A stretch of 54,651 nucleotides of DNA from contig JAFRGQ010000008.1 of assembly GCA_017433725.1 (NCBI GenBank), forward strand, positions 1 through 54,651. The letters run 5' to 3'. The DNA is from Lachnospiraceae bacterium. Lineage in GTDB: Bacteria; Bacillota; Clostridia; Lachnospirales; Lachnospiraceae. The notes under the pieces are model-generated. The model did not search any database and had not been told where the DNA came from. It was given only the letters and a program-made list of their open reading frames with translations. The translations under genes and the position numbers were made by a program. Below are positions 30,330 through 42,082 of the stretch, piece by piece. The first letter of the stretch is position 1; each line of letters begins with the position of its first letter.

Positions 30330-31808
30330 ATGAAAAGTCTATGGAAAAAATTCGCGGCAGCCGGTCTCACCGCAGCGATGGGTGTTTCCATGCTCGCAGG
30401 CTGCGGAAATAAGGATGCAAAGATCGATGGCACAAAGACAGCCGTCACGATCAACGATGAGGCTGTTAGCCTCGGTGCAGTAAGCTTTCAGGCCAGATTT
30501 CAGCAGGCTTATATGTATCAGATGTACAGTCAGTATTTCGGAACGACTCAGATCTTTGATCAGGTCATGGATGAGTCCACCGAGAAGACTTACGGCGATC
30601 AGATCAAGGAGAGTGTTCTTGAGAACATCGAGGAGCTTGTGCTGATTAAGCAGCATGCAGCCGACTATGATGTGGCACTCGACGATGAGAAGAAGGCTGA
30701 GATTGAAAAGATTGCCCAGGCTTATATCGATGAGAACGATGAGAAAGTCCGCGCTCAGATCGGCGCATCCAAGGAAGATGTTGTGTATCTGCTCGAGCTT
30801 CAGACCATTCAGGATATGATGAGAGAGCCGATGGCCAAGGATGTCGACACGGAAGTTTCCGACGATGAGGCGCAGCAGACGACTGTCACATACCTCTCCC
30901 TTGCCAAGAAGACGGAGGAAGATTTGGCAGCAGATGAATCAGTAACCGATGAGTCTGTAGCTGACGAGTCCGTAACCGACGAGTCTGTATCGGATGAGTC
31001 TGTATCTGACGAGTCTGTATCGGATGAGTCTGTAGCAGATGAGTCTGTATCGGATGAGTCTGTAGCAGATGAGTCTGTATCCGATGAGTCCACTTCCGAC
31101 GAGTCTGTATCGGATGAGTCCGTAACCGACGAGTCTGTATCTGATGAGTCAGTATCTGAGGAAGCGAAGAATGAAAAGCTTGAGGCAGCCAATAAAAAGG
31201 TCAAAGAAAATGCCGAAAAGATCCTCGCTGACCTCAAAGCATCTGACAATGCCGCAGAAGCTGACATGACAGCGATTGCCGCAAAATACGATGGCACTCT
31301 GACGGCAACTTCCGGCCAGTTCACGACAAATGATCCGACAGACACGACTCTCGACGCCGGCGTGGTCGAGGCCGCAGCCGAGCTGAAAGACGGTGAGGTC
31401 TGTGATAAGGTCATTGAGTCGGACACACATTACTACGTGTTCCGCGTTGATAAGACGTTTGCGAAGGATGAGACGGAAGCCAAGAAGGAACAGATTGTCA
31501 AAGACCGTAAGACAGAAGCTTACAATAATCTGATCGATAAGTGGAAAAAAGAAGCTGATATCAAGGTCGATGATAAAGTCATGGCGACACTGCTGATCAC
31601 GGACAAAGCTCCGTTCACACTCGGACAGGATGAGTCTGTGGCGGATGAATCGACAGCTGATGAGTCTCTTACAGATGAGACAACTGCAGATTCCGCAGCG
31701 GCGGAGGTCGCAGATTCGTCTGTGACAGATGAGTCTGTAGCTGACGAGTCTGTGGCAGATGAGTCTGCAGCGGATGAGTCTACAGCTGATTCATCAACAG
31801 AGAAATAA
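30330..31808 (+). CDS. PrsA/SurA-like foldase lipoprotein with acidic repeat insert
   Basis: The 492-residue protein has a lipoprotein signal ending in SMLAGCGN (lipid Cys at 25). Residues about 30-190 form a helical domain of SurA_N type. Residues about 201-277 are a nearly pure run of five-residue units DESVx, where x is S, A or T followed by the next D. A parvulin-like segment then follows (about 300-370), including ELKDGEVCDKVIESDTHYYVFRVDKTF. The C-terminus (about 434-492) returns to the same DESV/DEST repeats. The family assists folding of exported proteins outside the membrane. The repeat inside the fold is unusual and very acidic. CGGAG precedes the ATG. Confidence 0.75.
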   Translation: MKSLWKKFAAAGLTAAMGVSMLAGCGNKDAKIDGTKTAVTINDEAVSLGAVSFQARFQQAYMYQMYSQYFGTTQIFDQVMDESTEKTYGDQIKESVLENIEELVLIKQHAADYDVALDDEKKAEIEKIAQAYIDENDEKVRAQIGASKEDVVYLLELQTIQDMMREPMAKDVDTEVSDDEAQQTTVTYLSLAKKTEEDLAADESVTDESVADESVTDESVSDESVSDESVSDESVADESVSDESVADESVSDESTSDESVSDESVTDESVSDESVSEEAKNEKLEAANKKVKENAEKILADLKASDNAAEADMTAIAAKYDGTLTATSGQFTTNDPTDTTLDAGVVEAAAELKDGEVCDKVIESDTHYYVFRVDKTFAKDETEAKKEQIVKDRKTEAYNNLIDKWKKEADIKVDDKVMATLLITDKAPFTLGQDESVADESTADESLTDETTADSAAAEVADSSVTDESVADESVADESAADESTADSSTEK

Positions 31809-36489: not shown

Positions 36490-37073
36490 CACAGGAAGAT
36501 AAATTACGCAATTTTTATGATCTCTCGATTGAGAGTGCAAGCAGGCAGAGAGATCAGATGCTCGCTGACTGTCGGGCTACTCTCGAAGCAGACTTCGAAG
36601 CGCACAGGAGCGAGAAGGAGAAGATCGTCTCGGACCGCATGAAATCTGAGACGACCGCGCTCAGCCGCGAGCTGAAGCGCGATCTCTCGGACCGTCAGAA
36701 CCGGATTCGTCAGAATCTGGCGAAGAGGCAGCGGGAGGTGAAGGAGGAGATATTTGCAAATGTAGCCGATAAGCTCTCCGCCTTCCGCAAGACTCCGGAG
36801 TACCATACCTGGCTGTTCCGCAGTGTCAGGACTGCCCTGGCTTTTGCGGGTGAGGAGGAAGTCACGATCTATGTGGATCCGGCCGACGAAACATACACGG
36901 ATGAGATCCATGCAGTGTGCGGCGTGCAGCCGGTCATCTCGAACGTGAAATTCGGGGGCGGTATTCGCGCGGTCATTCGATCGAGAAATATATTGATTGA
37001 TAATTCCTTTGATACGCTTATGGCGGAGGCAAAGGAAGACTTTACGTTTGACGGAGGTATTCTGAATGGCTGA
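36486..37073 (+). CDS. ntpE: V/A-type ATPase subunit E (peripheral stalk)
   Basis: The 195-residue protein has a long N-terminal helix rich in Arg, Glu and Gln (about 15-100), then a small globular domain with VTIYVDPAD and GGIRAVIRSRNILIDNSFDTLM, the typical E-subunit ending. It forms the peripheral stalk with subunit H. Its start overlaps the stop of subunit F and its end overlaps the start of subunit A by 8 bases, so F, E and A are a coupled block. Confidence 0.9.
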   Translation: MTQEDKLRNFYDLSIESASRQRDQMLADCRATLEADFEAHRSEKEKIVSDRMKSETTALSRELKRDLSDRQNRIRQNLAKRQREVKEEIFANVADKLSAFRKTPEYHTWLFRSVRTALAFAGEEEVTIYVDPADETYTDEIHAVCGVQPVISNVKFGGGIRAVIRSRNILIDNSFDTLMAEAKEDFTFDGGILNG

Positions 37074-38838
37074 AAAGACAGGCGTTATTTACGGCATCAA
37101 CGGCCCCGTCATCTATCTGAAAAATGCTGTCGGGTTCAAGATGGCTGAGATGGTTTACGTCGGTGAGCAGAATCTGGTCGGCGAAGTTATTTCACTCTCC
37201 GGTGATATGACCACGATTCAGGTCTACGAGGAGACCGGCGGTATGAAGCCGGGTGAAATCGTTCGCGGAACGGGAGACGCGCTCTCTATTACGCTGGGTC
37301 CCGGCATCCTGAATAATATTTTCGACGGTATCGAGAGACCGCTGTCCGAGATCGCGAAGGAATCGGGCAAATATATTGCCCGCGGCGTATCCGTCAGTTC
37401 TCTTGACGAGCAGAAGCTTTGGAGGGTCACGATGAAGGTCAAGCCCGGCGATGAGATTACGGGAGGTACCGTCATTGCGGAGTGTCAGGAAACAGAGTCT
37501 ATTGTTCACCGTTCCATGATGACGCCGCTCATCGAGAAGGCTGTCGTCAAGGAAGTAGCACCGGAAGGGAACTACACGGTCAATGAGACGATCGTGACGG
37601 TCACGTTGCCGGACGGTACGGACAGGGAGCTTACGCTCGCTCAGAAGTGGCCGATCCGCGTGCCGCGTCCGACGGCCAGACGTATGCCTGCGTCTATGCC
37701 GCTTGTCACCGGACAGAGAATTCTGGACACTATTTTCCCGATTGCGCGCGGCGGTACAGCCGCCATACCGGGCGGTTTCGGAACCGGCAAGACCATGACT
37801 CAGCACGCCATTGCGAAGTTCTCCGATGCAAATGTCATTATTTACATCGGCTGCGGTGAGCGCGGCAACGAGATGACGGAGGTTCTGGAGGATTTCTCCA
37901 AGCTGGAAGATCCGAAGACGGGCAACAAGCTGATGGCCCGTACGACACTGATCGCAAATACTTCTAATATGCCGGTCGCTGCTCGCGAAGCTTCCATTTA
38001 CACGGGTATCACGCTGGCTGAGTACTACAGGGATATGGGCTATGACGTTGCGATCATGGCCGACTCGACATCCCGCTGGGCAGAGGCTCTGCGCGAGCTC
38101 TCCGGCCGTATGGAGGAGATGCCCGCAGAGGAGGGCTTCCCGGCTTATCTGGCTTCCCGTCTTGCTGCATTCTATGAGAGGGCAGGACAAATGAAGACTT
38201 TGGGTGGAGATGTCGGCTCTGTATCGGTCATCGGTGCGGTATCACCGCAGGGCGGTGATTTTTCGGAGCCGGTCACAATGAATACAAAGCGTTTTGTGCG
38301 TTGCTTCTGGGGGCTGGATAAGGCTTTGGCTTACGCGCGGCATTATCCGGCTATCAACTGGATGCAGAGTTATAGTGAGTATGAGAGGGATCTGTCTTCG
38401 TGGTATGCGAAGAATGTCGATCAGAAGTTCATTGAGGACCGGACAAGGATCGTTGCTCTTCTGAATGCGGAGGATAAGCTGATGGAGACGGTCAAGTTGA
38501 TCGGTTCCGATGTGCTTCCGGATGATCAGAAGCTGACGCTGGAGATCGCCCGCGTGATCCGGCTGGGGTTTCTGCAGCAGAATGCGTTTCATAAAGAGGA
38601 TCAGAATGTGCCGCTGAATAAGCAGTTTTTGATGATGGAAACGATTCTGTATCTGTATAAGAAGTCGAAGGAGCTGGTGTCGCAGGGGCATCCGATGTCG
38701 ATTCTTAAGCAGGATCCGATTTTTGAGAAGGTGATCGCGATTAAGTATGATGTGCCGAATGATAAGCCGGAGATGTTTGAGGAGTATCGTGAGATGATAG
38801 AGCGGTATTATGAGAATGTGTTGGCGAGGAACGGATAA
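37066..38838 (+). CDS. ntpA: V/A-type ATPase catalytic subunit A
   Basis: The 590-residue protein is the catalytic subunit. Walker [17 protein letters not shown] is near residue 235, followed by [16 protein letters not shown] with the catalytic Glu and by [14 protein letters not shown]. The extra bulge domain between the N-terminal barrel and the nucleotide domain, specific to A-type subunits, is present. It binds and hydrolyses or makes ATP at the A-B interface. Length is normal. The B gene normally follows directly; here 907 bases of repeats and hairpins intervene. The base composition of the last 400 bases is less GC-rich at third positions than the rest. Confidence 0.97.
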
Positions 38839-38928
38839 GAGGTGCGGTGTTCTACGGCACATATGTGTTCTGTTTCCGCAACACTTTACGGCACATGTGA
38901 GATCAGTTTTGGTTCTGCATAGTTTTAC

Positions 38929-39110
38929 GGCACATGTGTGATACTATTCATCGGAAAACTCTCGTCCTTACCTGCGAAATGAATAAATATATCTGCCCTT
39001 TGTGTTCCCGCGTGTCGCTGACGCATACACTTGGTCACACAAAGCGCAATATTTATCCATTTCTCGGCAGGACATCGAATGTTTTCCAATCGAATAGTAT
39101 ACAATGTGCC
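38929..39110. repeat. 182-nt hairpin, copy 1
   Basis: The arms match over nearly their whole length: GGCACATGTGTGATACTATTC pairs with GAATAGTATACAATGTGCC, then GGAAAAC with GTTTTCC, then CCTGCGAAATGAATAAATAT with ATATTTATCCATTTCTCGG and CAGG, then CTTTGTGT with ACACAAAG, and a terminal GCGT/ACGC stem. The result is an extended rod-like RNA or an inverted-repeat element. Confidence 0.75.
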
Positions 39111-39278
39111 TCGAAACCGGCGGAAGCAGATGGATAAGTGCGTGCTGTGCCTTGAAACCGGCGGGGGCAGATGGATAATGGGTGCTGTGCCTTGAAACCG
39201 GCGGGAGTAGATGGATAAGAAGGTGCTGCGGTTTTTTACGGCACATGTGAGATCAGTTTTGGTTCTGCATAGTTTTAC

Positions 39279-39461
39279 GGCACATGTGTGATACTATTCA
39301 TCGGAAAACTCTCGTCCTTGCCTGCGAAATGAATAAATATATCTGCCCTTTGTGTTCCCGCGTGTCGCTGACGCATACACTTGGTCACACAAAGCGCAAT
39401 ATTTATCCATTTCTCGGCAGGACATCGAATGTTTTCCCGATTGAATAGTATACAATGTGCC
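39279..39461. repeat. 183-nt hairpin, copy 2
   Basis: Second copy of the long inverted repeat. Its right arm keeps CCCGATTGAATAGTATAC, which pairs slightly better with the left arm than that of copy 1. The 350-bp offset between copies equals one hairpin plus the first minisatellite block, so the pair arose by tandem duplication. Confidence 0.75.
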
Positions 39462-39745
39462 TCATAACTGGCAGAGACGGAAGCAAAATAAGTGGCGGTT
39501 GTGCTGCGGAACGGGCAGAGACGACAGCTGAATAAGTGTGTGCTGTGCCTTGAAACCGGCGGAAGCAGATAGATAAATGGATGCTGTGCCTTGAAACCGG
39601 CGGAAGCAGATAGATAAATGGATGCTGTGCCTTGAAACCGGCGGAAGCAGATGGAAAAGTACGTGCTGTGTCTCGAAACCGGTGGAAGCGGAAGCAGAAT
39701 AGTGAGTGTAACGGATTTATAAGTATCAGTTGGTGGAGATAAAAT

Positions 39746-41128
39746 ATGTCTATAGAATATTTAGGCCTCAGTGAAATAAACGGTCCCCTGGTCGTTCTGG
39801 AAGGCGTCAAAGGCGCAGCCTACGACGAGATCGTCGAGTTCAAGATCGACGGGACACAGAAGAAGCTCGGCAGGATCATTGAGGATTATGAGGATAAGGC
39901 CGTCATCCAGGTCTTCGAGGGGACGGATGGCATGTCCCTGAAGAATACGCATACAAAACTGACGGGGCACCCGATGGAGCTGGCTCTCTCCGAAGAAATT
40001 CTGGGCAGGACGTTTGACGGCATCGGCAGACCGATCGACGGGCTGGGACCGATCGTTTCGGACGTACGGGTCAACGTGAACGGTATGCCGCTCAATCCGT
40101 GCCGGCGCGAGTATCCGCGCAATTATATCAATACGGGTATTTCTGCCATTGATGGTCTGACCACTCTTATTCGCGGACAGAAGCTGCCTATTTTCTCCGG
40201 CAACGGTCTGCCGCACGATGAGCTGGCAGCCCAGCTGGTCACGCAGTCGTCGCTGGGTTCGGGGACGGATGAGAGGTTCTGTGTTGTATTTGCCGCGATG
40301 GGCGTCAAGTATGATGTCGCGGAGTTTTTCAGAAGAACATTTGAGGAGAGCGGTGTTTCCGATCATGTCACAATGTTCCTCAATCTTGCAAATGATCCTG
40401 TCGTCGAGAGGCTCATCACCCCTAAAGTGGCGCTGACTGCGGCGGAGTATCTTGCATTTGAAAGAGATATGCATGTTCTGGTCATCATGACGGACATCAC
40501 CTCTTACTGCGAAGCGATGCGCGAGGTCTCCTCATCGAAGGGAGAGATTCCTTCGAGAAAGGGCTATCCGGGTTACATGTATTCGGATCTGGCTTCGCTC
40601 TATGAGCGTGCGGGTATCGTCGCCGGGCAGAAGGGTTCGGTCACACAGATCCCGATTCTGACCATGCCGAATGATGATATCACGCATCCTATTCCGGATC
40701 TTACGGGTTATATCACAGAGGGTCAGATTGTTCTGGACAGGAACCTGCATGGTCAGGGAATATATCCGCCGATCTCGGTACTGCCGTCGCTATCGCGTCT
40801 GATGAAGGACGGTATCGGTGAGGGTTACACGCGCGAGGATCATCAGGCAGTTGCGAATCAGTTGTTCTCTTCTTATGCGAAGGTTTCGGATGCCAGGTCT
40901 TTGGCGTCGGTCATCGGTGAGGATGAGCTTTCGGAAACCGATAAGATGTACCTGAAGTTTGGCGCTGCCTTCGAAGAACGGTTCGTAGGCCAGGGTCATG
41001 AGGAGAATCGACCGGTTCAGGAGACGCTCGATATCGGGTGGGAGCTGCTCGGTATCCTGCCGAAGTCGGAGCTGGACCGTGTAGATTCGAAGATGCTGGA
41101 GAAGTATTATAAGCCGGCAGAAGGCTGA
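39746..41128 (+). CDS. ntpB: V/A-type ATPase regulatory subunit B
   Basis: The 460-residue protein is the non-catalytic nucleotide-domain subunit. It starts [20 protein letters not shown], has [14 protein letters not shown] where catalytic subunits carry a P-loop, and contains [35 protein letters not shown]-type sequence, the classical B signature, in shorter parts. Length is normal. GGTGGAG precedes the ATG. It alternates with subunit A in the A3B3 head. The large upstream insertion means it depends on read-through across long hairpins or on a promoter inside them. Confidence 0.96.
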
Positions 41129-41329: not shown

Positions 41330-41959
41330 TTGGATCCAAATGAGGTCCCGACAAAAGGTAACTTGATAAGAGCCAGGAACTCCCTTGCTCTCTCTCGTCA
41401 GGGCTATGAGCTGATGGATAAGAAGAGAAATATCCTGATCCGCGAGCTTACCCAGTACATCGAGCAGGCCAAGGATATTCAGGATAACATTGACAGGACC
41501 TTCAGGGAGGCCTACGCCGCGCTGCAGGAGGCCAATGTCCAGATGGGTATTGAGACCGTCAGCAATATAGCGGAGTCTTTGCCTGTGGATGATGGGATTG
41601 AGGTCGTTATCCGATCCGTCATGGGTACGGAGATTCCGGTCGTGCGCCACGACGAGAGCCAGAATGCGAGACCATCTTATGCATTTTACAGGACCCGCGA
41701 TTCTCTGGATAAGGCGCAGACAGCGTTCCTGCGAGTCAAGGAGCTCACGCTCAGACTCTCGCAGGTCGAGAGCGCAGCCCACAGGCTGGCGACCAATATT
41801 CAGAAAACGCAGAAGAGAGCAAATGCGCTCCGCAACATCACGATTCCCCACTATGAGGAGCTGGTGAAGAATATTTCGAACTCTCTTGAGGAGAAGGAAC
41901 GTGAGGAGTTCACGCGCCAGAAGGTTATTAAGAGGATGAAGGAGTCGATTCCTCGGTAA
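41330..41959 (+). CDS. ntpD: V/A-type ATPase subunit D (central stalk)
   Basis: The 209-residue protein is the central rotor shaft, analogous to gamma. It begins PNEVPTKGNLIRARNSLALSRQGYELMDKKRNIL, given here in family order, and ends with a long helix rich in Lys and Arg; both ends form the coiled shaft inside the A3B3 head. The start is TTG at 41330, preceded by GGAAGGAGGT at nine bases. Its last 22 codons and stop are copied downstream in a 67-bp tandem array. Confidence 0.93.
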   Translation: MDPNEVPTKGNLIRARNSLALSRQGYELMDKKRNILIRELTQYIEQAKDIQDNIDRTFREAYAALQEANVQMGIETVSNIAESLPVDDGIEVVIRSVMGTEIPVVRHDESQNARPSYAFYRTRDSLDKAQTAFLRVKELTLRLSQVESAAHRLATNIQKTQKRANALRNITIPHYEELVKNISNSLEEKEREEFTRQKVIKRMKESIPR

Positions 41960-42082
41960 GAAGGAACGTGAGGAGTTCACGCGCCAAAAAGTTATTAAAA
42001 GGATGAAGGAGTCGATTCCTCGGTAAGAAGGAACGTGAGGGATTTACTCGCCGGAAAGGCATTAAGAGGATAAGCAATAGAT
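41893..42082. repeat. Tandem repeat of the ntpD 3' end
   Basis: Unit 1 (41893-41959) is the end of ntpD including TAA. Unit 2 (41960-42026) repeats all 67 bases with three or four changes, and unit 3 (from 42027) is a diverged partial copy. A period of 67 is not a multiple of three, and each unit carries the stop, so the extra units are not translated as part of ntpD. Confidence 0.9.

Follow-up and report, generated by a model that had tools for sequence, protein, structure and literature searches.

Several small repeat systems of bacteria resemble the locus described here. A review of bacterial MITEs (PMC10969869) gives as an example QMITE2, whose direct repeats measure 7-9 bp and whose inverted repeats measure 23-29 bp, and reports that Correia elements are processed by RNase III. 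BrickBuilt, a MITE of Porphyromonas gingivalis, occurs in 19 forms in one strain of that species, according to its description (PMC4596501). We analysed a window of 54,651 nucleotides from a Lachnospiraceae bacterium (contig JAFRGQ010000008.1 of assembly GCA_017433725.1), in which a stretch bearing hairpins and minisatellites lies between ntpA and ntpB. This stretch is very probably an old insertion of a short, non-autonomous, MITE-like element, which predated the split from the sister genome G021 and was later duplicated locally.

Results

Layout of the ntpA-ntpB gap

A first-pass annotation of the window had described one 907-bp insertion, made of a hairpin and a minisatellite, that splits ntpA from ntpB. 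The gap was real, but it held two hairpins of ~180 nt plus short repeats instead of one hairpin (Table 1). The 203-bp direct repeat of that annotation, each copy with most of a hairpin, was recovered. Its two copies were 350 bp apart and, in a base-by-base check, identical at 202 of 203 positions, with the single difference at offset 85. The 41-bp minisatellite was found as well, in the form of two arrays. The right flanks of the two hairpin copies were divergent, and the window copy showed neither clear terminal inverted repeats nor a recognisable target duplication.

Table 1. Positions of the features of the ntpA-ntpB gap, in window coordinates, and of a tandem repeat found beside other hairpins, in locus coordinates.
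Feature	Position	Strand	Remarks
ntpA, V/A-type ATPase subunit A gene, upstream neighbour	37066..38838	+	590 aa ORF; Pfam ATP-synt_ab, ATP-synt_ab_Xtn, ATP-synt_VA_C
ntpB, V/A-type ATPase subunit B gene, downstream neighbour	39746..41128	+	460 aa ORF; Pfam
ntpA-ntpB inserted stretch, 907 bp	38839..39745	.	ntpA stop codon to ntpB start
203-bp direct repeat, copy 1	38885..39087	.	hairpin 1 for the most part, left end included
203-bp direct repeat, copy 2	39235..39437	.	most of hairpin 2
Hairpin copy 1	38929..39110	-	covariance model match 38952-39087 (-), 143.8 bits; high score expected, the copy being among the model's 27
Hairpin copy 2	39279..39461	-	covariance model match 39302-39437 (-), 143.2 bits; high score expected, the copy being among the model's 27; outer limits derived from copy 1 by adding 350 and allowing for a 1-bp indel
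Left-end short repeats around TACGGCACATGTG (repeat family D4)	38843..38948; again 39227-39298	.	starts 34 and 39 bp apart
41-bp minisatellite, array 1	39105..39219	.	2.8 copies; right end of hairpin 1
41-bp minisatellite, array 2	39541..39689	.	3.6 copies; right of hairpin 2; G021 equivalent 2.9 copies
Possible decayed right terminal inverted repeat	39523..39539	-	GACAGCTGAATAAGTGT against family end GGCAGCTGAATAGTAAC; by eye, 11/17 bases, weak
73-74 bp tandem repeat	L098:990-1498, L099:1758-2248, L002:1086-1319, L003:331-518, L077:4714-5109		

The segment from 38915 to 39125 was predicted to fold at -83.8 kcal/mol on the + strand and, more stably, at -99.4 kcal/mol on the - strand; none of 200 dinucleotide-preserving shuffles was as stable on either strand (z -8.9 for + and -11.3 for -). 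The - strand, being the better-folding one, was taken as the sense strand of the hairpin. No intrinsic terminator was found in 38780-39800.

Other tandem repeats were seen elsewhere in the window. At 41892-42071, a 67-bp unit from the 3' end of the D subunit gene was present in 2.7 copies, and the end of ntpD appears to have been tandemly duplicated downstream. Repeats of the GATGAGTCTGTATCC type, with units of 15, 30 and 45 bp, were located at 30933-31156 and 31718-31790.

The gap in related genomes

An ntpB orthologue was matched in 39 of 42 genomes of the genus, and the best 18 of these 39, own genome included, were taken. The distance from the ntpA stop codon to the ntpB start could be measured in 15 of the 18, with no ntpA end found in the other three. 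It was only 11-16 bp in 10 of the 15 genomes when the window is counted, i.e. in 10 of 14 relatives. The five long gaps measured 907 bp (window), 516 bp (G021), 277 bp (G033), 104 bp (G005) and 321 bp (G004). G021 carried the same insertion with one hairpin, and the insertion therefore predates the split between the own genome and G021. Judged from these two assemblies, insertion would have come first and duplication of the hairpin later, unless one assembly is wrong; the second hairpin of the window is either a later duplication or an assembly error. None of the 104-321 bp gaps of G033, G005 and G004 (L113, L115 and L124) was among the listed matches of the hairpin model. Elsewhere in the own genome, at G000:C49:25555-26910, there was another gene for a V-type ATPase B subunit, with 56% identity.

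A dispersed family of hairpins

The hairpin was not unique to this site, since further copies were present both in its own genome and in relatives. Searched as DNA against its own genome, the hairpin was matched 15 times, at 80-89% identity apart from the window itself, and the core TGTTCCCGCGTGTCGC occurred there 14 times exactly and never with one or two mismatches. With a covariance model built from 27 long copies, 18 matches were obtained in the same genome. Fourteen of these were hairpins, spread over 11 places; of the other four, three were echoes on the opposite strand and one was partial. The model had matches in 9 of the 42 genus genomes, own included. In a shallow family-level scan of 397 genomes, which scored eight candidates per genome and may let weak relatives escape, the own genome was the sole match and none was found in the 396 others. 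The exact core pattern was found in 13 stretches of a species-level genome collection, 12 of them in one Lachnospiraceae assembly, RUG12161, and one in another, UBA3638. The family was far more abundant in G025, G018 and G003; in G025, the end repeat was matched 231 times at three or fewer mismatches, compared with once for a reversed control pattern.

A phage or plasmid origin was rejected on the finding that the window DNA had no match in phages or plasmids, as was a viral-contig origin, the exact core and end patterns having no match in viral contigs. In Rfam, the best overlap of the window hairpin was with SOX2OT_exon2, at 15.9 bits against a gathering score of 45 bits, and the best result for the copies at L010, L099, L104 and L105 was MIR2670 at L104, at 21.8 against 117 bits. 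With best scores this far under the gathering cut-offs, a known Rfam RNA family was ruled out.

Ends, target duplications and an empty site

The better preserved copies were ~200-260 bp in length and had terminal inverted repeats. The long form, found in the own genome, G021 and UBA3638, was ~256 bp with ends like GTTACTATTCAGCTGCC, and two short versions of it measured 118 bp; the GTTACTATTCAGCTGCC-type end pair was present in 19 of 28 loci given from the own genome and its sisters. The short form, found in G025, G018 and G003, was ~200 bp with a shorter stem and GTAACAGTTCAGACAGGCTG-type ends. Elements were 65-333 bp long, thus too short for a transposase gene, and no gene was seen inside.

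Some copies were composite. Hairpins at L106 (G000:C28) and L102 (G021:C7) stood head to tail, cut off on the right side and with their own left ends, the last element being complete. At L194, L195 and L210 (G025), short-form elements of 295, 333 and ~297 bp had a related extra insert at the hairpin tip, itself a nested repeat.

Direct repeats of 8 bp were found around a part of the copies. Six of 19 long-form rows (4 distinct sites) had at most one mismatch between their flanking 8 bp, with an exact TTGCACGA at L103; this count is without shuffle control, and the other 13 rows had 3-8 mismatches. Of 81 short-form elements, a set that includes orthologous pairs and some longer spans possibly pairing wrong ends, 10 had 8-bp flanks at one mismatch or less, where 300 shuffles gave 0.18 on average and never more than 2, and 71 had two or more mismatches. 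When flank lengths were compared in the short form, 7 bp gave seven elements versus 0.33 shuffled, and 9 bp gave one. The 8-bp target duplication is kept by a minority of copies and lost or decayed in the rest. Moreover, an empty site was found: G018 had a single CTCTGCCC within otherwise matching flanks, where G025 had CTCTGCCC-element-CTCTGCCC.

The family thus has the features by which a MITE is recognised, namely dispersed similar copies, terminal inverted repeats, an 8-bp target duplication with an empty site, and a length too short for a transposase. The first-pass proposal of an inserted element was borne out by the copies elsewhere, by the short gap in most relatives, and by the duplications and the empty site at other copies. 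Its proposal of spread by tandem duplication applied to the local array, with one hairpin in G021 and two here, but not to the genome-wide spread, which fits transposition. When 14 loci of the own genome were compared with loci taken from the sister, 10 had the insertion site in common, and the other four had no counterpart among the loci taken. Recent movement in the own lineage was therefore without support.

Search for a mobilising transposase

Transposases of IS66, IS256 and IS1595 were searched genome-wide in 9, 8 and 8 carriers respectively, several of these genomes being incomplete, and none was found with a matching end pair. An IS66 transposase was matched in 4 of 9 carriers, and G025, the richest carrier, had none; IS256 was matched in 6 of 8, and IS1595 gave one sub-threshold match among 8. 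The ends were examined at all twelve IS66/IS256 loci and one IS1595 locus, and no pair was seen. One IS256 locus of G018 had a lone exact end ~1.4 kb ahead of the gene, and no second end to match it turned up within 12 kb. IS66 generates 8-bp repeats and has GTAA ends. Derivation of the family from IS66 was rejected, with no IS66 in G025 and no matching end pair at the IS66 loci.

In stretches of G025, a lone end was kept in 5 of 20, and one of ten adjacent ORFs scanned encoded an IS1634-type transposase. This gene (L215:1689-4057, G025:C20) lay between two identical repeats of 99 bp, not 8 bp, each of which contained the right end of the element and was preceded by a run of N. Its plasmid relatives, annotated IS1634, were at most 46% identical. 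By eye, the left inner end of the locus had GACAGTTCAGA in common with the inverted repeat of the element. IS1634 makes long, variable repeats. Given this habit and the right ends of the element within the 99-bp repeats, the gene looks like an insertion beside the element and not its mobiliser, while the shared GACAGTTCAGA keeps IS1634 as a lead. In 40 further stretches, there was no second IS1634-type copy apart from an overlapping one, and no convincing long end pair; among 60 stretches from G025 and G018, any ends 0.7-4 kb from each other were only weak or already paired. By definition, REP repeats mobilised by RAYT lack a target duplication and have a Y1 transposase, and a repeat of this kind was rejected because target duplications were present.

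Fold, covariation and strand preference

Covariation was counted on structures predicted from the same alignments of related copies, and the counts are therefore not independent events: standard pairs made up 98.4% of cells in the 27 long copies, with 17 of 48 pairs changed on both sides, and 97.4% in 65 short copies, with 24 of 49 pairs changed on both sides. For the long copies, no shuffle out of 500 equalled the observed value on four of the five measures of covariation, five shuffles did so on the remaining measure (further pair types), and slid structures fell far short. For the short copies, none of 500 shuffles reached the observed value on any of the five measures. The fold was kept across the two kinds of inverted-repeat ends and across long and short versions.

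The sense strand (window -) folded better in 27 of 28 long copies, four truncated copies being excluded, and in 51 of 65 short copies, which were oriented by homology. When pairs predicted from both strands were counted, G-U exceeded A-C on the sense strand by 41 to 19 and by 8 to 2, in copies that are related and in numbers that are small; pairs predicted from one strand only leaned to that strand, as they must. This suggests that selection may act on one single strand of the hairpin, but arm-to-arm correction could explain a part of this.

In the loops, several residues (GA/GA, GA and GCA, AT) did not vary among the 27 long copies. Taken as a whole, loops were not more conserved than stems, neither in the long copies (18 of 39 unpaired versus 48 of 96 paired columns invariant) nor in the short copies (4 of 106 versus 19 of 98). 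The end repeats within one copy differed by a mean of 2.94 mismatches, compared with 4.16 for shuffled partners (the lowest of 2000 shuffles was 3.80).

Tandem arrays beside the elements

Tandem arrays within 150 bp of a long hairpin were found at 6 of 8 loci in the own genome (nine were given, and one was dropped as the search motif was absent), 5 of 7 in G021 and 5 of 12 elsewhere, versus 1 of 51 control windows; these controls were unmatched for intergenic position, and the excess may reflect the element or that position. Within this survey, the element limits at L097 and L105 were too wide, and some arrays were not element sequence (L009, 73-74 bp repeat). For the short forms in G025 (16 given), arrays were present at 1 of 11 loci versus 4 of 22 controls. 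Unit length varied by site from 28 to 67 bp, and by eye the units at L001, L002, L007, L008, L010, L101 and L151 carried pieces of the element's own ends. Arrays also differed between orthologous sites, with 4.1 copies at L007 versus none called at L103 (two units visible), and 3.0 copies at L008 versus none at L086. Among short forms, repeated ends or whole elements were seen at L201/L320, L298 and L326. The 41-bp arrays of the window would fit repeated tandem duplication at the end of the element.

At L201/L320 (G025:C2), the right inverted repeat with flanking DNA recurred every 62 bp, and at L298 (G025:C5) three whole elements followed in succession, ~210-220 bp apart. A separate tandem repeat of 73-74 bp, with TTACCGAAGTA / TACTTCGGTAA motifs, was present beside several hairpins in the own genome and G021 (Table 1).

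Orientation relative to neighbouring genes

Sixty-five placements were scored, in an ORF-based count that includes orthologous near-duplicates and misassigns the window row via a spurious ORF: in 21 both genes ran along the sense strand, in 20 both ran against it, and the remaining placements were convergent (15) or divergent (9). No orientation bias relative to genes was seen in these 65. Since selected control of an mRNA should bias orientation, a conserved role in controlling the neighbours was unsupported for the family; a local effect on ntpB, such as RNase III cleavage of the kind reported for Correia elements, would be a separate possibility. The earlier suggestion of a structured RNA affecting downstream genes therefore stands for the structure, which is real and conserved, but not for conserved control of neighbours.

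Discussion

The history that we favour would begin with an insertion close behind the stop codon of ntpA, before the own genome and G021 separated. The element is a near-palindrome. Terminal inverted repeats bound it, its subterminal part varies, and its long internal stem bears several internal loops that are constant. A putative transposase acting in trans would probably have made cuts at the inverted repeats and then linked the DNA to its target, where 8 bp were duplicated. The window copy itself, whose own ends have decayed, would have entered in this way. Later slippage at the hairpin and its ends, or unequal exchange there, may have given the 350-bp duplication seen here and the 41-bp arrays.

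The second hairpin and the arrays could instead be artefacts of an assembly that consists of 98 contigs and is 76.8% complete, a concern sharpened by the single hairpin of G021 at the same site and by the near identity of the two window copies. We consider this improbable, as the right flanks of the two copies diverge, the insertion itself is present in two separate assemblies, and arrays of varied unit length lie beside other copies. It is very unlikely that the hairpin is a cis-acting regulatory RNA, selected to set the expression of ntpB versus ntpA. The strong, conserved fold with its covariation and the location within an operon would suit such an RNA, as would two promoter-like + strand sites in the gap (39152-39179 and 39716-39745), which are no excess (3 in all versus 1.7 expected). 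However, the family occupies many unrelated loci in both orientations, 10 of the 14 measured relatives have no room for the hairpin, the better-folding strand is antisense to the ntp mRNA, and 38780-39800 has no terminator-like site.

A separate question is why the fold is conserved. Quasi-palindrome template switching, by which the arms correct each other, would produce matching changes in the absence of selection, and the fold would then only look conserved. This explanation is possible, if on the unlikely side. The arms of the inverted repeat match better within a copy than between shuffled partners, and unpaired columns overall are no more conserved than paired ones, both as template switching would have it; the matching of arms may also reflect subfamilies, and alone it decides nothing. 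But template switching should erase internal loops, several residues of which are constant in the 27 long copies, and the excess of G-U over A-C on one strand speaks against it too. A bolder but doubtful proposal is that a folded single strand, either RNA or single-stranded DNA, is needed for the element's own spread and is recognised by a mobility or host factor, with the hairpin also seeding the adjacent tandem arrays. If the fold is needed for spread, the element would not be merely what a deletion has left of an insertion sequence.

Under the reading of an old MITE-like insertion, the apparent oddity in a core operon is explained by an ordinary process, and the main interest lies in the hairpin, whose sequence has changed without loss of the folded shape. 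If this fold is under selection, the family offers a simple system in which to ask what, apart from its ends, a mobile element without genes requires. Moreover, the birth of minisatellites could be seen in the flanking arrays, which at a given site are not alike in sister genomes.

The hairpin family is of the MITE type with an unusually conserved interior. It is absent from Rfam, and among the matches listed in the literature searched, which took in few subscription journals, it was not named. In common with the bacterial MITEs covered in the review (PMC10969869), it is short, gene-less and intergenic, with inverted ends, a short target duplication and stable folding. Unlike them, as far as the review describes them, its interior fold covaries across two kinds of ends, and its parent insertion sequence was not found. 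Correia and ERIC elements, as presented in the same text, are likewise hairpin-forming inserts in transcripts. According to the description of BOX, RUP and SPRITE of Streptococcus pneumoniae (PMC3049150), these too are small interspersed elements with extensive secondary structure and a narrow distribution, apparently parasitic and slow-moving, a likeness that is one of description and not of sequence. The BrickBuilt MITE of P. gingivalis is also minisatellite-associated and intergenic (PMC4596501). Its 23-nt repeat lies inside the element, between leader and tail, whereas in the present family the unit length varies by site and the units take in the ends of the element and, in places, flanking DNA.
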